Below are positions 4,824-20,154 of a stretch of 24,062 nt of DNA, piece by piece. Under the pieces are notes generated by a model, which searched no databases, had not been told where the DNA came from, and worked only from the letters and a program-made list of their open reading frames with translations. Location: the IMG/VR virus record IMGVR_UViG_3300042868_000545, positions 1 to 24,062 of that record. One strand, written 5' to 3'. The first letter of the stretch is position 1; the number at the start of each line of letters is the position of its first letter. Origin of the DNA: a virus. The translations under genes and the position numbers were made by a program.

Positions 4824-5363
4824 TTACCTAAATCTTGGGCCACTAAACCACATTGTTGCCGAATAGCGTAATCCTGACAATACTGGCAGAACTCGATGTT
4901 CAAGAATACTTGGAAACGCAATCATCGTTCCCTTTGCCAATGGTGCTTTGTAATCGTTGTACAAACGAACTTCAAATTCACCGCCTTCGAATCCATCGTT
5001 TAACAAACAGACCACTGACACTTTGCGATCAAGCGGATTGCCTGCCAAAGTGAAAGTGTCTGTGTGCCATGCGTAATGGTGGTTTACATCGTATTCAGCA
5101 AATTGAATATTCTCTTTCTGCGTGATTTCGTAATTCCACCCGCAAACCTGATTGGCTTCTAGCGCAAACTTTTCAAGGTCTTGGCCTAACCAATAATCAG
5201 GTTCAGCAAAACGCACTTTTGTATTTCGCGTAACTTTATTTTCTTGTTCGCCTTTAGCCCCCATCTTGGCATCGTTAACTTCGATGTTAGACAGTTCAGC
5301 AATCACTTGGTTGCAAGAATCGTTATCAAGGCTACCTAAATACCAGATGGGTAAATGGCTCAT
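4824..5363 (-). CDS. 2-oxoglutarate/Fe(II)-dependent dioxygenase (prolyl hydroxylase-like)
   Basis: 179-residue double-stranded beta-helix oxygenase. The iron triad is H100 and D102 in YAWHTDTF plus H156 in LEHRVLPV. R166 in GLRYSATMWF is the 2-oxoglutarate anchor. The strands VVCLLNDGFEGGEFEV and KGTMIAFPS are typical of PKHD-type/P4Hc hydroxylases. It should couple oxidation of 2-oxoglutarate to hydroxylation of a protein, nucleotide or small-molecule substrate. It lies beside genes for collagen-like Gly-Pro-Thr fibres, which makes proline hydroxylation an attractive but unproven role. Ribosome site AAAAGGA is 7 nt before the ATG. All key residues are present, so it is probably active. Confidence 0.9.
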   Translation of the reverse strand: MSHLPIWYLGSLDNDSCNQVIAELSNIEVNDAKMGAKGEQENKVTRNTKVRFAEPDYWLGQDLEKFALEANQVCGWNYEITQKENIQFAEYDVNHHYAWHTDTFTLAGNPLDRKVSVVCLLNDGFEGGEFEVRLYNDYKAPLAKGTMIAFPSILEHRVLPVLSGLRYSATMWFSGPRFR

Positions 5364-5933: not shown

Positions 5934-8900
5934 TTAAAACCTCGCTTCCAATTGTTTAATGCGTTCTTCTAACGCTGTTACATATTTTGCCAGTTCTACG
6001 GCAGAAACCAAAGCGGCACTACCATAATTTACAACTAACTTTCCATCTACACCTTCAAAAACTGAATTAGGCAATAAAGGTTGCAATGATTGTGCTGAAA
6101 CACCTTCTTGCGTTAAACCCGTATCAATTCGATCATAAACACCATGTTTAACTAATGAAAGTTTTTCGACAAAATTATCAGGCAAATCACGCCAATTTGT
6201 TTTTAATGTTTCGTCTGAATATGCAGTGACATTGCCCCGTGAAACAAAATCGTAAGTACTCCAATAACCAGAATAAACGCCTGCCGCGGCAAAATACAAA
6301 ACAGCGCCATCAGTTCTTAATGTTGGATATGTATTGGCCGCATATCCGGGTAATGAACCTGTTAAATAAATACGGCCTTGCGAAATGTTTGTACGAACAA
6401 TATCCCCTTTGGCAATAACAACACCACTGTCGGAATCTAAGAAAATTGTTGATACCCCCGCAGATGCAACATATAGACCCCAACCAGTTTGTCCAAGTCC
6501 GGGGTTTGCTGATCCATTACCAACTGTGTAGCCAATACCATACATATTGCCAAGGCTTGTTGTTGCGGGTTGATAATTACCGCCAATCGTGTAAATACAA
6601 GAAGAACTGTTGGAATCAGTAGAACTTGGATAATTACCATCTAAATACCCTGCCGCAGAAGTAGTTCTTACTATGCGATTAGTCAAATTTAATTGGTATA
6701 AGTTTGAAGTGCTTGCTGGGTCTAAGTAATAGCCTGTGTTGTTAGCATCGTAAAAAATAGTGCCATCTACACGACCATCAAAATAACCGCCTTTAACAAC
6801 ATAAATGCCGTAAGTAGAAGGTGCAGTTGCCGTTCCAACACCCATACAGTTGTTGGCAACATTGTGATACCAATACCATCTGCCAATTCCCTCTCGGTAA
6901 ACACCTCCATTACCGCTACTGTCATACATCATGCCATTGACAGCACTATGCGAAAGAAACATACCACTATAGGAATTTTTACTGCCGTCTATTTGTAATT
7001 GCGTATAAGTAGAACTAGCATTTGGGTAAAGATGTGCCCCATAAAGGGTAGGCCAATATATTCCATATGACCCATCCATTTGAATCCAACTGTTAGGTCG
7101 GAAATACATATTCCCAGACAAAACAATTCCATACAAAAGCGAACTGCCGTTTGGATTTAAATAATAGCCTGTATCATCACTATCATAAAAAATTGGTGCT
7201 CGCCATGAACCAGTCGCCAAACCATAACCAAGAATCCATGTGTTTAATGCGTTACCTTCTGCACCAAATACACCAGTAAAACCGCCTGCCGCGGCAGTGT
7301 ACATCCCCCAACCAGAACCTCTAGAAGCACCAAAAAAGTTTGTATGTGAATAACCAATTCCATACATATTGCCTAAACCAGTATCGGTGGGATTGTATGA
7401 AGAACCAATCGTATAAATTGGGTTTGATTTATCACTATTGTTGCCTACATTGTTAAAAGTGCCTTCAAGCCATCCCGCTACAGATGAGTTTCTTCGAATT
7501 GGGCCTATGAACAATGCAACATTTAGTCTTGAACTGCCTGCGCCATCAAAATAATAAGATGTGTCGTTGCTGTCGTAAAAAATTGGTGCGCGTAAAGAAG
7601 AATCGGATTGCAAATAGTTTCTTGGTATTTGAACTACGCCAACATGGTCAATCGACATTGAAGTTTTTGAACCCGTTGCAAACGAATCGGTTGTACCAAA
7701 ATACATCTTAGTGCCGTAAGCACCAGATGATTGAACATAGATACCCGCCTGCGCGTCAGTGCTGTTCCACCCCCAAGTAACGCCCTGCGCGTAATCAGCA
7801 ATACCACTACCTGAAAATGCCATTCCATAAGTTATAAGTCCGGGGGTTGTGGTGTTAATACTTCCTGAATAATTAGTCTGAATCCCTGTTGATGTTGTTG
7901 CACTAACAGATGTTGCGGCAAACGATGCAGGGCCGGGGGGGCCAACAGGGCCAGTTGGGCCTGTAGCACCCGTTGGGCCTGTAGCGCCTGTTGGGCCTTG
8001 TGGGCCTGTCGGGCCAACAGGGCCAGTTGGGCCAGTTGGGCCAATGCCACCAGTAGGGCCAGTAGCGCCTGTTGGCCCTGTTGGGCCTGTCGCACCCGCA
8101 GGGATACCAAAGTTAAATACTGCCGCGCTAGATGTGCCGCTGTTGGTTACTGTTGCAGGGCTTCCCGCTGACAAAGTTGTAGTTGTACCAACAGCAATGG
8201 TTGCGGCTGATCCTGTAGGGCCTGTAGGGCCAGTTGGGCCTGTAGGAATAACAAAGTTAAGAATTGCCGCAGATGATGTGCCTGAGTTAGTCACATTAGC
8301 CGCACCACCCGCAGGGCTTGTTGAAGTTGAACCAACAGTAATCGTTGCCGCTGTGCCTGTCGGGCCTGTTGGGCCTGTCGGCCCTGTAGCACCCGTTGCG
8401 CCTGTTGGGCCAAGTTGGGTGTACATGATTTGACCAAGGTTGGCAATAACAGATGGTGTTGCAGGCGTAACGGGTGAAGTGCCTGCCGCACTGTGTTGCA
8501 AACTTACATCTGTGCTTGTTCCTGTCCACCACAATTCAATGTAATCATTTGCAGAAACAGAAGTGCCAATGATTGAAACAGTAACCAATTGGCTACTTGG
8601 ATTACCAACAGATTTTCTTGGTTCTAAGTCAATTTGAACTGCCGAATTAGGATAGTCAGCGCCATTTAATCTTATCCAAAATGTTGCAGTCTGAACATCG
8701 TTTGATAGGTTATGAACTGCCGCAACAAATGTAAATTGGTAAGTGCCAATAGTAGATAGAACCAGTTGGCTAGTTCCATTGCGAGAAATACCATTTGCAG
8801 AATAAGTTGAATTGATTGTTACAACTTGCGCTGTGTTAGCAGTAACAATTGATTGGTCTGTTGTATCGTAGAACGCGCCAAAGTTACCTAATGCACCGCC

Positions 8901-9164
8901 TGCACCAGTTGGGCCAGTAGGCCCTGTTGGGCCTGTCGGGCCAGTGTTACCTATAGGGCCTTGCGGGCCAGTTGGGCCAGTTGGGCCTGTTGGCCCTGTT
9001 GGGCCAATTTGGTTAATCTCAATAATTGATTGTGTGCCATCATCCTTTTTCAAGAACAATTTGCCATCAAATGTATTGATTGCGATTTCGCCCAAATCAA
9101 GATCGGCAGTTGTTGGAACTTTTGCCGCAACCGCTGATCTCTTAACCTGAATTTTATTAGCCAT
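5934..9164 (-). CDS. Collagen-like tail fibre with C-terminal self-cleaving S74 chaperone
   Basis: 1076-residue adhesin. Residues 1-50 (ANKIQVKRS...[19 protein letters not shown]) form the virion-attachment module resembling the Mtd N-terminal domain. Gly-Pro-Thr type triplets occur at about 53-88, 250-272, 305-315 and 357-413, separated by a globular beta domain (90-245) and two copies of a [10 protein letters not shown] spacer. From about 415 on lies a beta-rich receptor-binding region with three FYDSxDTxYYxDP repeats (about 525, 655 and 800) and two LGNMYGIGY repeats. The end is an intramolecular chaperone/S74 peptidase: S983-D984-E-T-L-K988 gives the Ser/Lys dyad, with cleavage expected before S983, and the final helix is coiled coil. 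It should trimerise and bind the host surface. Confidence 0.92.
7930..9010 (-). repeat. Collagen-like Gly-Pro-Thr coding repeats in the large fibre
   Basis: Four tracts of 9-nt-periodic Gly-X-Y codons (about 8900-9008, 8350-8415, 8215-8245 and 7925-8100) encode mainly GPT, with GAT, GPV and GPQ triplets. Between the inner tracts are two copies of a spacer of about 45 residues containing [10 protein letters not shown]. Gly and Pro codons are varied (GGC/GGG, CCA/CCT/CCC), which lowers exact DNA repetition. Confidence 0.88.
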
Positions 9165-11437: not shown

Positions 11438-14400
11438 TTATCTTCTCCCAATAAAAGCATTAACCAATAAATTACGCATACCAAATGCTTGCGTTCCACT
11501 GTAATTATTGATTTGCGTATTTGTATTTAAACTAATTGTTTGTGTCCCTGTGAATGGGGCTGTGTACAAACCTTTAATTGATTGTGTGAAATTTTGTGAT
11601 GATTGAATTTGATTCCAAGGTAAAGAATAACCATTGAAAACTAATGAACCATTGCAATAAATTTGTGGTGTCAGAATCCAAGGTTGATTTGCATCATTTT
11701 CCACCCTGTAATAATAAGTGCAATCAATCAAAATCTGATCGCCTGCATTTGCATAGATATAAGATGTTGCAAAAGTATCATCTACAGTAACAATAATATA
11801 ACCAGATGCAAACCTTTGGAAACCATTAGACCCCGCAAATGATGAAGATGTTATAGCCTCATTTGCAACCTTCAATGTAGTGATTTGGGCCGTGCCAATC
11901 AGGGCTGTTGTGATGGCGGCATTTTGAATATATGCAGTGCCAATTGCGGCCGCACCAATGTAAGTTGAAACATTTGCAGATGTGATTGGATTGGCTGAAC
12001 GAACAATGCTATTGTCCAGACCCGGAACAGTAACAGCACCACCCCCCGCGCCCGACAATGTGCCATTAGAGTTAATAGAAATATTGTTATTTAACCACCC
12101 CGATGCAGGCGTGATATTTCCAAAGTTCAAAGGCGTTCCATTGCCCAAGATCACATTTCCTGAACCATCTTTCAATGTCAGATTATTTGAATTAATGTTG
12201 GATGGGAAAACAACAGTGCCGTTCAGCGTAATTGCTGACCCGTTATATGTGATGTTATTGGTTGAATTACCAACTGCGAATTGCCCGTTGGAATAAATAA
12301 CAGCACCTGAACCCGTCATTGTTGTGCCGCTTAAAGCGGCATTGTTAGATTGGATAGTTCCAGAAACAGTTAGGTTGCCTGTGTTTGTGCTGATAGCAGA
12401 AAGGCTACCAACCTTTAGCGCAGACAAATACGGCACATTCCAAACTGTTAAACCAGTTGCAGGGTTATAGATGCCATCTGATTGATAAACAGATTCGCCC
12501 GCTGAGATTGTTTGGGGCGTTGCTTGCCAAACAGTTCCACCACCCCATGAATCATTTGGCGGGAATGAACTTGGGCCAGATGTTGTAATGGTTGCAGGCG
12601 TTGAAGCCAAAGAAGTTAGCGTTGTTTTGGAATAACAGATTCGCGCAGAAGCGCCCTGATTTCCTGTGCCGCCCGTAGGCCCTGTAGCGCCCGTAGGCCC
12701 TGTTGGCCCTGTTGGCCCTGTAGCGCCATTGTTGCCCGCGTAGCCTGCCGCAATAATGCTTGCTAGTGTCCAATTAATTGATGTTGTGGTGGCCGTAGCC
12801 GTATCAGAAATATTGACAGAAGCCGCCCACAATGTATAGCCCGCACTTGGCGCAGAAGTAATTGATGTACTCCAACCAGATGGCACGGGTGTAAATGAAG
12901 AACTCGACCATGTATATGTTGAAGTTCCTGTTGGGCCTGCGGGCAAAGTTACCGCCCACTGATAAACAACTGGCCGCGCAACTTGCAAACCATTTAAACC
13001 ATTAGTGCCGTTTGTGCCATTTGCGCCATTCTGGCCATTTAAGGTAACAGAAGCAATTGAATAACCGCTTGTCCAACTAATTGTTGAAGTTACAGTGCCA
13101 ACAACAGCAACCACGGGTTTTGTTGCTGTCCATAGTTGGATTAATGGAATACCCGGATTTGCAGGGATTGTTGTTGTCCATCCACCACCGCCCGTATAAC
13201 TTGCATTGGTTGCAGTTGCCCAAGTATAAGTTGATTGCCCACTTGGATTTGATGGCGTTGCAGTTGACCATTGATATAGCGTTGGCGTTGCGGATTGGTT
13301 GCCATCAGTACCCGCATTTCCCGTTGCGCCTTGATCTACAAATACAAATTGCAAAATAGATGATGCACCTTGCGACACAACACCAAGCGCAGATTTATAA
13401 CGCACTGGCACTGTCATTGTTGCAGGCGATGCACTCATCGCAGTGGGAATGCCCCATTGTGCAAATGTTCCACCATCAGTTAATGAACCCATCACCAAAC
13501 CATTTGTTGTGGTGATATCTGTATAGCCCGTAGTTGATGAACCGCCAATGCGCCAAGTGTTATTTACAAATGAAGCATCACTGTCATTTTGTGCTGTAAC
13601 AAAATCAATAGCACCGCCTGCGGCAGAACCATAAAGTTGCGTAATTAATCCCGTGAACGATGGAACAAATGAAGAATTCCGCGGCACTTGCATAACCACG
13701 GGTGAAAAGGTGGCCAAGAAAGTACCCGCAACCGCAGATGTAGTTGGGTTAGGCGACCAACTGAAACTTGTAGATGTTGGAGAAAGCGCAGAACCACCTA
13801 GTTCGTTTGCAACTTTATATGAGAAATAATAAGTGCTTGTCGGCAGATTAATGTTTTGAAAAACAAGATTTGTAGATGGCGCAAATGGTTGTGAGTTTGC
13901 TAATGTTTGTACACTCCAAACTTCCCAATCAGTTGTTGTTGGGCTACTAACTGTTGTATAAAACAAAGTGATTTGAGTTACGCGGCCTGTTGATGGCACT
14001 AAACAAACAACATCAAAATGTGGAATTGTTGCAGTGGTGTTTACATTGGTAACTGTTGGGGCTGTCAGATTGCTAAAAAAGTTAGGGTTTGACAGATTGC
14101 TATTTGGTGAAGGCGAAAACGCGGTGATATCTTTATCATCATAAACTTGCGCGTTGTATTCGTTCAATTCAAGTGATGCACCCAAGTTTCCATCAGGCAA
14201 TGAAACTTCAGAAACCTTCATCACTCTAAACAACTTATCATCCCAACCATATGCAGAATTAGTTACGGCTATAACATCGCCCGCATCAACTTGAATGCCG
14301 TTGTAAGTTGTAGAGAAATTAACAATCAAATCTTCCCGCGCTTGTTCAAGCATTCTGTTTGCAATGTATTGCGCTTGCACAGAATCATTGACCATGCTTA

Positions 14401-15583
14401 GATCGAATGTGTATTTATTAACGGGTTCGTTAGCAAACAACAATTCTTCAGGCGTATTCAGATAAACATAATCTGATTGGTCGCGGTTTAACTTGCTTGG
14501 GAACTGCGCTTGTATTTGGTTAATGCTTGCAGAAATATCAAAAGCACTAACGCGGATTTCACCAACAATGTTTGAATCGTCAAAATAGAAATTAGTGGCT
14601 TGGGCTTTGTTGATAACAATTGCCCATTGACCTTTAGAAGCGTTGTATTGATTCCAAGAATCGCAAGCCAACATGATTTGATCTAGGTTGGACAATACAT
14701 TTTGCCCTGTATCTAAAACGCCATTGATTCGATAACGCGGCTGTGTTGCACTGCCACCCGCGGCAGGCGTATAAGTAATTAATTCATCAGAATAAGCGTT
14801 CAGTGCTGTGGCTGTATCAGCGTCAACAATGGTGGCATCCATAGCACAACCATATTTCTGATTTGTAATGTAGTCGTACCAAACATCTCCGGGTTTTGCA
14901 ACGCCCTGATTATTTAAATAATGCGATGCCCTGAATGTCAACGCCTGCATTTGTGTTGTGCCTGCATCCCTGTTGTAAATCATCTTCACAATAGCGAACG
15001 CCAAGCCATTCATTTGGCGGCCCGTAGAAGGCCATTGTTGTGCCGCGGCTATGTCACTGCCACCCATTACAGAACTAGGCAATGCAGTGCCGTTTAAGGC
15101 CGTTATAACGCCTGCTTCACTTGATCTGTACAGATTGATATAAAGGTTGCCCGCAATCTTTGTTTGAACATTGCCTGCGCCATCAGTTAGGCTTGCAACT
15201 TTGGTTGGGTCTGTTCCATCAAATGTAATGATTTGATCTTGCCAATACATCTTTGTCGTATCAAAAGAGAATTGGCCATTGGGGCTAATCTGAGAAACCG
15301 CCAAAACATAGTACATAGTTTTTTGGTCGGTTGACAAAACGGCATCAACGAATGTGCCCCCCATATAGGCATCGCCATAAACAATTGGCAAACTGTTTGT
15401 TGTGGCAGGGGGAACTTGTTGGCGAACGCCATTATCAACACTTTGGTTGGCGCTTCCAGAACTAAACACCCTAGAAACAATCATTGAAACGGCAAAGTTA
15501 ACCGCAAATGTTGCCGCGGCCAATGATAGGCCCGTTGCTGTTGCAAGCGATGCCGCGGCTGTTGCCAATAGTGTAAAAACCAT
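11438..15583 (-). CDS. J-like central tail tip / host specificity protein
   Basis: 1381 residues. The first 42 are hydrophobic and Ala-rich (ATAAASLATATGLSLAAATF). Residues 60-500 form the conserved tip hub: PIVYGDAYMGG, then ITFDGTDP, an Asn/Asp-rich middle, and LIVNFSTTYNGIQVDAGDVI followed by LFRVMKVSEV, as in the Phage-tail_3/J family. A fibronectin-like domain spans about 515-610. Two tandem modules beginning YQWS and YQWA (about 769-845 and 872-948) surround a Gly-x-Asn collagen-like stretch (846-866) and precede a Gly-Pro-Thr stretch (949-976). The C-terminus has IGTAYIQNAAITTALIG repeats and a beta-rich end domain. It should form the tail's distal hub, contact the receptor and carry the fibres. 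Confidence 0.88.
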   Translation of the reverse strand: MVFTLLATAAASLATATGLSLAAATFAVNFAVSMIVSRVFSSGSANQSVDNGVRQQVPPATTNSLPIVYGDAYMGGTFVDAVLSTDQKTMYYVLAVSQISPNGQFSFDTTKMYWQDQIITFDGTDPTKVASLTDGAGNVQTKIAGNLYINLYRSSEAGVITALNGTALPSSVMGGSDIAAAQQWPSTGRQMNGLAFAIVKMIYNRDAGTTQMQALTFRASHYLNNQGVAKPGDVWYDYITNQKYGCAMDATIVDADTATALNAYSDELITYTPAAGGSATQPRYRINGVLDTGQNVLSNLDQIMLACDSWNQYNASKGQWAIVINKAQATNFYFDDSNIVGEIRVSAFDISASINQIQAQFPSKLNRDQSDYVYLNTPEELLFANEPVNKYTFDLSMVNDSVQAQYIANRMLEQAREDLIVNFSTTYNGIQVDAGDVIAVTNSAYGWDDKLFRVMKVSEVSLPDGNLGASLELNEYNAQVYDDKDITAFSPSPNSNLSNPNFFSNLTAPTVTNVNTTATIPHFDVVCLVPSTGRVTQITLFYTTVSSPTTTDWEVWSVQTLANSQPFAPSTNLVFQNINLPTSTYYFSYKVANELGGSALSPTSTSFSWSPNPTTSAVAGTFLATFSPVVMQVPRNSSFVPSFTGLITQLYGSAAGGAIDFVTAQNDSDASFVNNTWRIGGSSTTGYTDITTTNGLVMGSLTDGGTFAQWGIPTAMSASPATMTVPVRYKSALGVVSQGASSILQFVFVDQGATGNAGTDGNQSATPTLYQWSTATPSNPSGQSTYTWATATNASYTGGGGWTTTIPANPGIPLIQLWTATKPVVAVVGTVTSTISWTSGYSIASVTLNGQNGANGTNGTNGLNGLQVARPVVYQWAVTLPAGPTGTSTYTWSSSSFTPVPSGWSTSITSAPSAGYTLWAASVNISDTATATTTSINWTLASIIAAGYAGNNGATGPTGPTGPTGATGPTGGTGNQGASARICYSKTTLTSLASTPATITTSGPSSFPPNDSWGGGTVWQATPQTISAGESVYQSDGIYNPATGLTVWNVPYLSALKVGSLSAISTNTGNLTVSGTIQSNNAALSGTTMTGSGAVIYSNGQFAVGNSTNNITYNGSAITLNGTVVFPSNINSNNLTLKDGSGNVILGNGTPLNFGNITPASGWLNNNISINSNGTLSGAGGGAVTVPGLDNSIVRSANPITSANVSTYIGAAAIGTAYIQNAAITTALIGTAQITTLKVANEAITSSSFAGSNGFQRFASGYIIVTVDDTFATSYIYANAGDQILIDCTYYYRVENDANQPWILTPQIYCNGSLVFNGYSLPWNQIQSSQNFTQSIKGLYTAPFTGTQTISLNTNTQINNYSGTQAFGMRNLLVNAFIGRR
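12985..13045 (-). repeat. Gly-x-Asn collagen-like repeat inside the tip protein
   Basis: Encodes NGQNGANGTNGTNGLNG, a run of Gly-x-Asn triplets between two tandem modules of the J-like protein. A separate Gly-Pro-Thr/Gly-Ala-Thr run lies at about 12655-12735 in the same gene. Confidence 0.8.
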
Positions 15584-15585
15584 TT

Positions 15586-16032
15586 CTATTCCCTAACAAA
15601 AGTTGCGCCAACAGGCTTGTAGCCCCTGCGCGTGTAATCAATCAATGGCCCATTTGCTGAAATCGATGTGTATATTAAATCAACGCTTCCAATTTCCAAC
15701 ATCTTTTTTGCGTGTGCATCAAACTCTTTCCAAAGTCTGCCGCCCAATGTTCCATTTCTATGTTCAGGTTCTACCCACCACAAAAGTTCATGCAATTCAC
15801 GAACCTTGGGCGACCATATGTTGTTTTGTTTTATAGCAATGATTGCACCACGCATATGGTTATCAATGTAAATAAAACCTTTGCCCTGTAATATCCCAAA
15901 CAATAATTCTTCAACATATTTTGGAAAATGATTGTTGCTGTCTCCAAGTTTTGTAATTGTGTTTTCTTTGGCGTATGCCTCAACAATTTCTAATAATCTT
16001 GGTATGTCATATCTTGTTGCCTGTCTTATCAT
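15586..16032 (-). CDS. GNAT-family N-acetyltransferase in the tail module
   Basis: 148-residue acetyltransferase-like protein: MIRQATRYDIPRLLEIVEAY is the standard first strand-helix. GFIYIDNHMRGAIIAIK forms the central strands. VEPEHRNGTLGGRLWKEF (88-104) is the CoA pyrophosphate-binding loop and helix (R92 to G98). DLIYTSISANGPLIDYTRRGYKPV is the usual C-terminal strand with the NxxxxxYxxxGF-like ending. It should transfer acetyl from acetyl-CoA to an unknown amine. It lies 2 nt from the J-like gene and 2 nt from a distal tail gene, where lambda carries genes K and I. Similar phage GNATs occur near structural genes, but their substrates are unknown. Confidence 0.84.
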   Translation of the reverse strand: MIRQATRYDIPRLLEIVEAYAKENTITKLGDSNNHFPKYVEELLFGILQGKGFIYIDNHMRGAIIAIKQNNIWSPKVRELHELLWWVEPEHRNGTLGGRLWKEFDAHAKKMLEIGSVDLIYTSISANGPLIDYTRRGYKPVGATFVRE

Positions 16033-17328: not shown

Positions 17329-19317
17329 TTAGGTTCTCCCGTAATTTGTGGCCAAGTTCTTTTCGCCATATTTGTTAGCCGCCCAAATCGCTTTTGAACT
17401 ACCAAGCAACCTATCTTCAAATGATTTAGTGTCGATAGCGTTAATGTAATTGTTCGTCACATTGGTTGTGCCGCCCATGCCGCCCAAAGCGTGATTTGGA
17501 ATAATTGTGCCTGCTGTACGGGGAACGAATAATTCAGGCCCGCGTTCTCCGACAATACTTAATTGTCCAACTGCGGGGTTTCCACCATCTGCATATCCGG
17601 GCATTCCCGTCACTGCCGCGGGTTGATATGGCGAACCACCAAACAAAGAACTTAAAAATCGTACTGCCGCGGCCTTCATTTGCATTGCAACAATATCTTG
17701 AATGATGCTACGCGCCAAATCTTTAAAGTTCATTTTGCCTGTGCGAACGAATCTATCAATTGCAGATTCCATGTTGCCCATCAACGAATCAAAAGCCTTT
17801 GCGCCTTGTTCTAATTCAGTTGGCATATTTCGCAAGAATTCACCCATGCGTTTTGCCATACCTTCTTCGTAAGTGCCTTCGCGCAAACCTCTTGTTAAGC
17901 GGTGTTTTTCTTTTGCAATTGACAATGATCTTTCTGCAAGCGCGTTTTCGCGGGCTTCTGCTTCTGCCCTTGCGGTTGCTGTTAAATCTCTACGCGCGTC
18001 TATTTCTTCTAAGTTTCTTGCAAGTTGTTGGCGAATCTGCATCTGTTCGCGTTCAAGGGTGTAATCCTCTTGTCGCATAGTGCTAGATTTCATTTCTAGT
18101 TGCATTAGTTCGCGTTCGTTATCTAACGCAATACCCATCAACCTTTGGCGTTCTGAAACCGCTTGATTGCCTTTGTCATACATTGCAAAAAAATCAGCAC
18201 GGGCCTTGGCATCTTCTTCGGCAGATTTCTGCGCGTTTGCCGCACCAGACGCGTAAAGTTGCATTTGTTGTTTGCGTAATTTTTCTGCTTCTTTGGATTC
18301 TGAAACAACTCTACCGCCACCACCCTTGGCAGGCTTTTTATTATCTGTTCTGCGTTCATCAGTGCCACCGCGGCCCATGCTAACGCCCATCACCTGACCT
18401 TGATAAAAGTCTAAGTTTTGTCGGCTTGCTTTAACAGAAGCGTTATATTTTTCGTTGGCCGCAATAGCCGCATCAACGCCTTCTGTTACTAATATTTTTG
18501 CGTTTTGATATGTGTGAGCAAGTTCATTAAAAATCGTACTAAAAAACCATTGAACTTCAGAACCCAAAACTGCAACTGTTTGAAATACAGTTTTAAAGAT
18601 GCCGCTAAGTGAAACACCGCTATCACTTAATGTTTTGAAATAGTCAACTGTGTTTTTAAGTATTGGCCCAAGTTCTGTAGCCAAAACCAACATCACATCA
18701 CGCGATGTTTTCTCGAAAAATTCCATTACATCTGCCGCGGCTTTGATTGCTTTTTCTTGTTCTTCAATCAATGGGTTGGCTTCTGCCATTTTTTCAGCAA
18801 AGCCAACAATGTCAACGCCTTTAGCGGCCTTGGAAAATATTTCCATTGCTTGCGCGTTGCGTGTAATTGGATCTTCAATTTTTGCTAGATTGGCAACTAC
18901 TTTGTTTAGTAATTCTTCTTGGGAAAGTTTGCCCAAGTCTTGCAAACTAACACCTAACGCCTTTGCGGTTTTCTGTGCTTTATCTGAACCACTTGCGGCT
19001 TCATCAATAAACTTTGCAAATGCTGATAGCATTTTGCCCGCGTTATCGGCTTTGCCGCCTGAATCTTGCAAAGCATTTGATAATTGCAAAACTGTACCAA
19101 TTGCAACTTCATTGGCTTCTGCTACATCAGCAAGTTCATCAGCGTATTTGATCGCGGCAACGCCTGCGGCAACCATACCAACTGCGGCAATCTTTCCATA
19201 TTTTTCTGCGGCTTGGCTAAACTGTTCAAGTTTTTTACCCGCGGATTCAAGCCCTTTGCTGAACTCCGCAGAATCTAACCCTAGCACTACGCCAAGGCGG
19301 GCAATCATATTAGCCAT
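17329..19317 (-). CDS. Tail tape measure protein, lambda type
   Basis: 662-residue, Ala/Lys/Glu-rich, mostly helical protein that sets tail length and is ejected with DNA. The start LGVVLGLDSAEFSKGLESAG is a classic tape-measure opening. A hydrophobic segment (AAVGMVAAGVAAI, about 44-57) follows. Coiled coil covers about 340-520, and the C-terminal lambda-type domain is RTGKMNFKDLARSIIQDIVA (about 525-545), continuing to about 564. GERGPELFVPRTAGTIIPN (590-608) is another hallmark of this type. At about 0.15 nm per residue the tail would be near 100 nm, an inference. The start overlaps the end of the GT frame by 8 nt, as expected for the chaperone-tape order. Confidence 0.92.
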   Translation of the reverse strand: MANMIARLGVVLGLDSAEFSKGLESAGKKLEQFSQAAEKYGKIAAVGMVAAGVAAIKYADELADVAEANEVAIGTVLQLSNALQDSGGKADNAGKMLSAFAKFIDEAASGSDKAQKTAKALGVSLQDLGKLSQEELLNKVVANLAKIEDPITRNAQAMEIFSKAAKGVDIVGFAEKMAEANPLIEEQEKAIKAAADVMEFFEKTSRDVMLVLATELGPILKNTVDYFKTLSDSGVSLSGIFKTVFQTVAVLGSEVQWFFSTIFNELAHTYQNAKILVTEGVDAAIAANEKYNASVKASRQNLDFYQGQVMGVSMGRGGTDERRTDNKKPAKGGGGRVVSESKEAEKLRKQQMQLYASGAANAQKSAEEDAKARADFFAMYDKGNQAVSERQRLMGIALDNERELMQLEMKSSTMRQEDYTLEREQMQIRQQLARNLEEIDARRDLTATARAEAEARENALAERSLSIAKEKHRLTRGLREGTYEEGMAKRMGEFLRNMPTELEQGAKAFDSLMGNMESAIDRFVRTGKMNFKDLARSIIQDIVAMQMKAAAVRFLSSLFGGSPYQPAAVTGMPGYADGGNPAVGQLSIVGERGPELFVPRTAGTIIPNHALGGMGGTTNVTNNYINAIDTKSFEDRLLGSSKAIWAANKYGEKNLATNYGRT

Positions 19318-20154
19318 CTTTTACCCCAAACTTTGTTTTATTAAATCCCTGTGCCTGTGACATAAAGCCAATCAGGCTATCGTTTACTGCCGCTTTTTTC
19401 TGTTCTTCAGACAAAGGCGGGTATATGTAATCATACGCATTACCCAAAATGTTGGCTAGTTTATAAGTTGGGGAATTTGGCGGGCGCATATAGTTAAACA
19501 CCCCGTTGGTCAGGGATGCTATTTGCGTTAAAAGCCCGTAGTTGCCAATCAATCCATCTGCATACATCGTTTGGATGTTTGCCATAGTGATATCGTCAAT
19601 TTCGGCTACTGTATCTAATGTATGCCCGTTAAAAACCATTGCCGCAATGCACTGCGTTTTTAACGAGCCAATTAGTTTCCCCGCGCTTCCTTATAGGTCG
19701 GGCTAATAACTTCACCAATTTTTTCCACAATCTGCATCTGTACAGAAATTGGGAATTCTTCTTGAATATCTTTATAAGTTAAATCTTCTAGCGTTGCACC
19801 TTCTAGTTCAGGAACAAGCAGTTTGAAAAACTCAGTAATTCTCGCTTCTGTGATGGCTTTGTTTTTGGCCGCTTCACGCATAGACCTACCTTCAACCAAA
19901 ACATCATTTTCAGTAAATTGAAATTCGTCTGTTTGGTTGCCTTCAAATTGGCGCAATGATGCCGTGATTTCTTGATAAACTTTTTCTACTGTTTCTTCAT
20001 CAGGGTTTGCAACCTTTTGGTAGATTGCTTCGGATTCTGCAACCAGTGGAATGCGAACCTTAAAGATGTGGCCGCCCAATTCAAATGTGCGCGTTAAAAG
20101 ATTCTTCTTATTACTTTGGTACTTGTCGCCAAATGCGCTAGAAAATTTTGTCAT
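19310..20154 (-). CDS. Tail assembly chaperone GT, made by -1 programmed frameshift
   Basis: Fusion of the G protein (160 residues) with a second frame of 121 residues, giving about 281. The zero frame ends CGG-GGA-AAC-TAA. A -1 slip on GGGAAAC (19681 down to 19675) continues as CTA-ATT-GGC, giving LIGSLKTQCIAAMVFNGHTL, with no stop until 19310. The T part contains NIQTMYADGLIGNYGLLTQI and FNYMRPPNSPTYKLANILG, and is helical. GT proteins coat the tape measure and recruit tail tube subunits during tail assembly and are absent from the virion. The frame overlaps the tape measure start by 8 nt, the canonical position. The ATG at 19639 inside this frame is not needed as a start. Confidence 0.87.
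19627..19665 (-). promoter_or_regulatory. Frameshift-stimulating hairpin
   Basis: Read leftward, CGTTAAAAAC pairs perfectly with GTTTTTAACG (10 bp). Inside it a second stem CATTG/CAATG closes a CGG loop, with six unpaired bases on the 5' side. The outer stem starts 9 nt after the slippery heptamer, the usual spacing for a stimulator. Confidence 0.8.
19672..20154 (-). CDS. Tail assembly chaperone G (unshifted product)
   Basis: 160-residue protein made by ribosomes that do not shift. The N-terminus KFSSAFGDKYQSNKKNLLTR is followed by a beta region (FELGGHIFKVRIPLVAESEA), then acidic helices (ETVEKVYQEITASLRQFEGN) and EARITEFFKLLVPELEGATL, consistent with a G-type chaperone (lambda gpG, HK97 gp13-like). 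It acts in the cytoplasm with GT in assembling the tail around the tape measure. The start overlaps the stop of the upstream HK97-gp10-like gene (AATGA). The terminal GGA-AAC codons form the slippery site. Function is inferred from position, frameshift and composition, since these proteins are very divergent. Confidence 0.84.
   Translation of the reverse strand: MTKFSSAFGDKYQSNKKNLLTRTFELGGHIFKVRIPLVAESEAIYQKVANPDEETVEKVYQEITASLRQFEGNQTDEFQFTENDVLVEGRSMREAAKNKAITEARITEFFKLLVPELEGATLEDLTYKDIQEEFPISVQMQIVEKIGEVISPTYKEARGN
19675..19681 (-). promoter_or_regulatory. Slippery heptamer GGGAAAC for -1 frameshift
   Basis: The heptamer fits the X-XXY-YYZ rule in the G reading frame (G-GGA-AAC) and directly precedes the G stop codon TAA. 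Slipping places the ribosome in the frame that reaches 19310. The lambda G/GT site GGGAAAG differs only in the last base. Confidence 0.9.

Follow-up and report, generated by a model that had tools for sequence, protein, structure and literature searches.

A probable programmed -1 ribosomal frameshift near the stop codon of a tail assembly chaperone-like gene in a group of largely uncultured phages

Two open reading frames that stand just before the tape measure gene of an uncultured tailed phage raise the question of whether they are two genes or a single gene that is read in two frames. The window analysed here is a virus stretch of 24,062 nt from a metagenomic record (IMG/VR record IMGVR_UViG_3300042868_000545), and all the features given below lie on its minus strand. 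The first frame, G (19672..20154), is the zero frame and encodes 160 aa; it is considered tail assembly chaperone-like from the open reading frame, its place before the tape measure gene and its structural model. The second called frame begins after a gap of 32 nt (19671-19640) and is followed by the tape measure protein (17329..19317; PF09718, 1.2e-14; phrog_1538, 4.9e-17). In chaperones of the G/GT class the extended product GT is made at a few percent of G, and both proteins are needed for tails and are absent from virions. Read from CTA at 19675-19673, the -1 frame of our locus is free of stops until the TAA at 19312-19310 and overlaps the tape measure ATG (19317) by 8 nt, and two frames placed in this way constitute the G/GT arrangement. 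This extension, the T part of GT (19310..19675), comprises 121 aa, the first of which are LIGSLK, and with C19675 read twice the predicted length of GT is 281 aa. The initial annotation of the window had proposed a G/GT frameshift at this place; the gap between the apparent genes, the -1 frame open to 19310 and overlapping the tape measure start, and every other coordinate that it gave proved right when read on the minus strand.

We consider it about 95% probable, judging from sequence comparison, that the end of G is a site of programmed -1 ribosomal frameshifting. The comparison of relatives reveals a slip site, its frame, a downstream stem, an upstream Shine-Dalgarno-like (SD-like) element and -1-frame coding that precedes every possible start codon; that ribosomes slip there, how often they do so and what G and GT do are inferred. 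Most ribosomes would decode CGG-GGA-AAC and terminate at UAA, producing the 160-aa G. A minority, slowed or strained by the contact of the upstream UAAGGA with 16S rRNA and by a stem of 11-13 bp located 6 nt downstream, would let their tRNAs re-pair from G_GGA_AAC to GGG_AAA and would go on reading CUA-AUU-GGC. The product would be the 281-aa GT with the junction EARGN-LIGSLK, and the junction GGN-LIGSLK suggested initially is to be corrected. By analogy with lambda, G may form a coat on the tape measure protein, with the tail tube protein being recruited by the T part of GT and both G and GT departing before the virion is complete.

The slippery heptamer G_GGA_AAC (19675..19681) is read directly from the sequence in the frame of G, and the G stop TAA (19672..19674) follows directly 3' of it. 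The 3' end of G is AAG GAA GCG CGG GGA AAC TAA, and the -1 reading is CTA ATT GGC TCG TTA AAA. The motif, correctly recognised at the outset as GGGAAAC ending on GGA-AAC-TAA, is a canonical X_XXZ_ZZN in the zero frame, as a heptameric -1 frameshift requires. Among 25 scanned genes, with 50 in-frame heptamers in 6,854 slots, it is the only in-frame X_XXY_YYZ site adjacent to a stop (about 0.18 such sites expected by chance), and CGG-GGA-AAC has zero synonymous diversity over 68 distinct G genes.

The search with G returned 206 relatives among the scanned IMG/VR stretches, 80 of which were kept, and more were obtained through an alignment headed by phage P19250A and through T. In all 144 loci assembled the slip site is located right before the G stop (GGGAAAC in 88, AAAAAAC in 9, GTCAAAG in 46 and GTCAAAA in 1), but some of these loci are one contig fetched twice, and the 113 distinct junctions are the better count. 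A scan with the stem arms, which left free the slip site and the purine/pyrimidine choice at two wobble-wobble pairs, gave at least 120 matches and added CTCAAAG, TTCAAAG, GGAAAAG and GGGAAAG; it imposes much of the stem and of a second stop, and so is no independent evidence on these for the loci that it added. As a control of the spacing, the same scan with the gap one base longer yielded 3 unrelated matches. All complete loci have an open -1 frame. A slip site that would fuse T in the -1 frame abuts the stop at the G end in 113 of 113 distinct junctions, and the core common to all of them is AAA-N-stop plus the stem. The stop itself may be TAA, TGA or TAG, its identity having switched at least 18 times on the tree with its position invariant. 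The conservation of the heptamer, which the initial annotation had proposed to check in related phages as its loss would speak against frameshifting, is thus found in a wider sense: the site alters to other slippery forms, always at the stop.

These forms fall into two builds. Sites with AAC have an XXX triplet in 77 of 77 distinct junctions and the SD-like element in 76 of 77, and the sites with AAG or AAA have them in 1 and 5 of 36, respectively. The 35 of the 36 AAG/AAA junctions that are devoid of XXX retain at least 10 of the 11 stem pairs and qualify as A_AAG tetramer sites; they include the sister phages such as P19250A with N-UCA-AAG-stop, while the window itself has the full heptamer. 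In E. coli, A_AA.G slips as a bare tetramer, and G_GG.A_AA.C and A_AA.A_AA.C are of low efficiency (PMC4066793). The low efficiency of the heptamer of the window in that bacterium counts against our reading (PMC4066793), and competition from the release factor at the adjacent stop may lower the shifting further. The two builds agree with the E. coli rules in that low-efficiency AAC heptamers would need help. This agreement is suggestive only, since the association of AAC, XXX and SD represents essentially one deep split on the tree, on which Z changes twice, XXX twice and SD four times.

Some relatives deserve separate mention. In the P19250A group (L083-L122) the G end carries tandem A_AAG tetramers, ATA AAG TCA AAG stop, both within the -1 open window; in L221 the first tetramer is gone (AGG) and the stop-adjacent one is kept. 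Another relative, L162, has GGGAAAC-TAA; its contig was assigned to the bin of a Crocinitomicaceae MAG, in which it is probably a virus contig.

The strict adjacency of the slip site and the stop invites a different view of the moment of slippage. The ribosome may slip once translocation has brought AAC or AAG into the P site and the stop codon into the A site, the wait for the release factor giving the necessary time and the stop being a working part of the signal; the initial annotation, too, had suggested that slow termination may be coupled with slipping. The invariance of the stop position over changes of its identity is in line with this possibility, as is the AAG clade, which keeps just the AAA triplet and the stop of the site, and E/P-site slippage at a stop-adjacent site in bacteria was proposed by Tate and co-workers (PMC4373837). 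On the other hand, a stop in that place lowers frameshifting and RF2 abolishes it (PMC4373837), the release factor competing with frameshifting at the stop-adjacent HIV-1 site both in bacteria and in human cells (PMC4373837). The adjacency may also do no more than shorten the dual coding or limit the share of GT, and the full XXX triplet retained throughout the AAC clade is what tandem slippage would be expected to preserve. We regard slippage after translocation as less likely than not. An extension of this thought to the whole family is offered as a speculation: one chaperone family with two builds, SD plus XXXAAAC and A_AAG mostly without SD, would share AAA-N-stop and the stem, the stop would be the invariant element at which ribosomes slip while awaiting the release factor, and the speed of termination would set the chaperone ratio.

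Programmed frameshifting at the heptamer would be assisted by two further elements, the first of which, the SD-like element conserved just upstream of the heptamer, was overlooked initially. In the window it is UAAGGAA (19687..19693), 6 nt before the heptamer, with AGGA 7 nt before it. The form A(A/G)GGAA is kept in relatives and precedes the heptamer, as AAG GAA or AGG GAA, in 97 of 97 loci with XXXAAAC in the first set, where its pairing with the 16S tail amounts to -5.1 to -6.2 kcal/mol in the AAC clade. Arginine at the element is encoded by AGG in 40 of 40 cases among the 68 distinct G sequences, and elsewhere in these genes AGG accounts for 10 of 448 Arg codons. Of the 77 distinct AAC junctions, 76 have an anti-SD dG of -5 or lower; these junctions are not independent of one another in the phylogeny. 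The weight of the element lies in the AGG bias together with this count. With 17% of synonymous shuffles reaching the observed SD mean, the pairing strength is just moderately unusual, and the AGGGAA form present in many relatives is absent from the proven list of PMC4066793.

The second element is a putative stimulatory stem-loop (19624..19668) with the arms 19668-19656 and 19636-19624, which form 13 pairs in the window and 11 in the consensus. Its spacer of 6 nt from the heptamer conforms to the rule that the RNA structure starts 4-10 nt after the slip motif (PMC4066793). The perfect 10-bp stem noticed initially, CGTTAAAAAC (19665-19656) with GTTTTTAACG (19636-19627), does begin 9 nt past the heptamer, but it is the core of a longer structure: in the best fold it is lengthened at its base by G-C, C-G and U.G, which gives the 13 pairs of the window, and the tenth pair of the core is formed in just 28 of 64 sequences. 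A nested 5-bp stem proposed along with it turned out not to be conserved, 52% of the cells being able to pair, and was dropped as an element. The folding energy of the 77-nt element (19681-19605) is -24.2 kcal/mol, compared with -12.8 +/- 2.5 in shuffled sequences (z -4.56; 0 of 200 shuffles as stable), and Rfam gave no match in the window.

Compensatory changes, another of the checks suggested at the outset, were found at four stem pairs of alignment A4 (20-62, 23-59, 26-56 and 29-53). Independent contrasts were applied to the two wobble-wobble pairs, on a tree from which the last ten G codons and the first two T codons were omitted and for which branch support is SH-aLRT only. The A-U/G-C switch at pair 26-56 was concordant in 9 of 9 contrasts (p 0.004), and pair 23-59 was concordant in 7 of 8 (p 0.016), the eighth being unchanged. 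Inside the 5' arm of the stem, 12 nt past the first stop, the G frame has a further one (TAA or TGA; 19662-19660 in the window); it is present in 64 of 64 rows of alignment A4 and could simply reflect the Leu-Lys/Arg codons of T.

If T were instead a separate protein, the locus would comprise two genes with a 32-nt gap, and translation of the second would begin at ATG 19639, alone or by termination-reinitiation coupling. This codon (19637..19639, codon 13 of T) is the likely T start for gene callers; all 138 of the 138 first-set loci have it, and the deposited annotation of P19250A has two genes. The sequence ahead of it is, however, under purifying selection as T-frame code: along a minimum spanning tree, the 12 codons from the G stop to the ATG have a pN/pS of 0.26 when read in the T frame, for which the G frame gives 0.80 and the third frame 2.41; the values of the T body and of the G end are 0.19 and 0.17. 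The median anti-SD energy ahead of the ATG is +0.1 kcal/mol, whereas the starts of G and of the tape measure gene have -4.1 and -6.1, respectively. The ATG also adjoins the 3' arm of the stable stem, and a start there would cut into the first helix predicted for T (residues 2-15). In two relatives, L272 and L305, the ATG is replaced by CTA or CTT and there is no T-frame ATG, GTG or TTG before codon 31. Since it has no SD and is replaced in these two loci, ATG 19639 is judged to be no start. The Methylophilaceae phage P19250A, about 50% identical, has the same -1-frame peptide across the break (VVGSLRTQVRAAMVFNGH vs LIGSLKTQCIAAMVFNGH). From the pre-ATG coding, this peptide, the startless loci and the missing SD, T is considered to be made as an extension of G, and its independent synthesis is highly improbable. 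The conserved start and ribosome site of its own that would have favoured a separate T is thus not what the relatives display, and the frameshift put forward initially is strongly supported by the slip sites, the pN/pS values and the compensatory stem changes taken together. That the break arose through faulty sequencing or assembly, as might happen with a metagenomic virus record, or is bypassed by slippage of RNA polymerase and not of the ribosome, is scarcely credible: more than 100 contigs have the same break, as does the genome of the isolate P19250A, no long homopolymers are present (4 G, 3-6 A), and the conserved RNA stem and SD-like element suit a ribosomal event.

Neither G nor T has a convincing family in Pfam, PHROGs or NCBIfam, and a PDB sequence search with the G profile gave nothing relevant. 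For the AlphaFold model of G (pLDDT 86.7) the best alignment, over 101 residues (rmsd 3.6), was with 2ob9_A, the tail assembly chaperone of HK97; its Z of 6.1 is at the top of the list yet moderate and below the level safe on its own; the T model (pLDDT 76, pTM 0.48) had no usable structural match. The neighbours are major capsid, HK97 gp10-like, distal tail and tape measure proteins. From these neighbours and the structural model of G we place the function and the mechanism with lambda G/GT, as a likeness that does not imply common ancestry.

Other genes of the window are also worth recording. A GNAT acetyltransferase-like gene (15586-16032; phrog_1249, 2e-12) lies inside the tail operon, flanked by a baseplate-hub-like gene and a large J-like tail gene. 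Collagen-like GPTGPT repeats occur in the tail proteins 5934-9164 and 11438-15583, the former having at its end a Peptidase_S74-like chaperone domain just under the Pfam cut-off. A 2OG-Fe(II) oxygenase-like protein (4824-5363; PF13640, 1e-16) adjoins the tail fibre genes.

The locus shares with lambda G/GT its place before the tape measure gene, the -1 direction, the G_GGA_AAN heptamer and the T stop overlapping the tape measure start, although there is no detectable sequence similarity to G or T of the window. According to our measurement, 15 nt separate GGGAAAG from the G stop in lambda, whereas GGGAAAC of the window abuts it and is accompanied by the conserved SD-like element and stem. In lambda the G:GT ratio is about 30:1 and neither protein is in the virion (PMC5009743). 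A direct parallel in slip site placement is the chaperone frameshift of coliphage T1, annotated as a -1 fusion, where AAAAAAC abuts TAA as in the window; AAAAAAC-stop also occurs among the relatives, and G and T of the window had no sequence match in T1 in the phage search. HK97 gp13/gp14 has G_GAA_AAG in frame near the gp13 end, the same letters as in the relatives L253 and L281, but its slip site is inside the overlap and not at the stop, and it too has no detectable sequence similarity to the window. The three-part design of SD-like element, slippery heptamer and downstream stem is shared with E. coli dnaX (PMC3711429), which differs in its AAAAAAG heptamer, its shortened product and its unrelated protein. 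The A_AAG tetramers of the IS3 type (PMC4066793) resemble the N-UCA-AAG-stop with a stem and without XXX in the sister phages, where the stop follows directly. The mean slip-to-stop distance given for PRFect is 26 nt in the SEA-PHAGES set and 36 nt in the Xu set (PMC10885494); the zero distance of our locus is at the short end of the range and has a direct precedent in T1, the distance having been checked in lambda, HK97 and T1. The kind of signal is thus ordinary and not new, and it is its support by comparison that is unusually strong.

These results correct the reading of this locus in uncultured phages that form a widespread group, and in P19250A as the only cultured relative found here. 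In P19250A (L082, KX815270.1, 9904-10715) the genes P19250A_0013 and P19250A_0014, deposited as two hypothetical proteins separated by the same 32-nt gap, are G and T of this system, and the deposited annotation misses the frameshift. In the open-access literature we found no paper on this frameshift in P19250A or OM43 phages, an absence that is weak evidence. What were two hypothetical genes would be one frameshifted chaperone gene, adding a chaperone family that goes unrecognised in Pfam, PHROGs and NCBIfam. The relatives provide a natural series, in which the stem and the position of the stop are constant but the slip site, the SD and the identity of the stop differ, and this series may be useful for asking if -1 slippage is aided or hindered when a stop codon occupies the A site.
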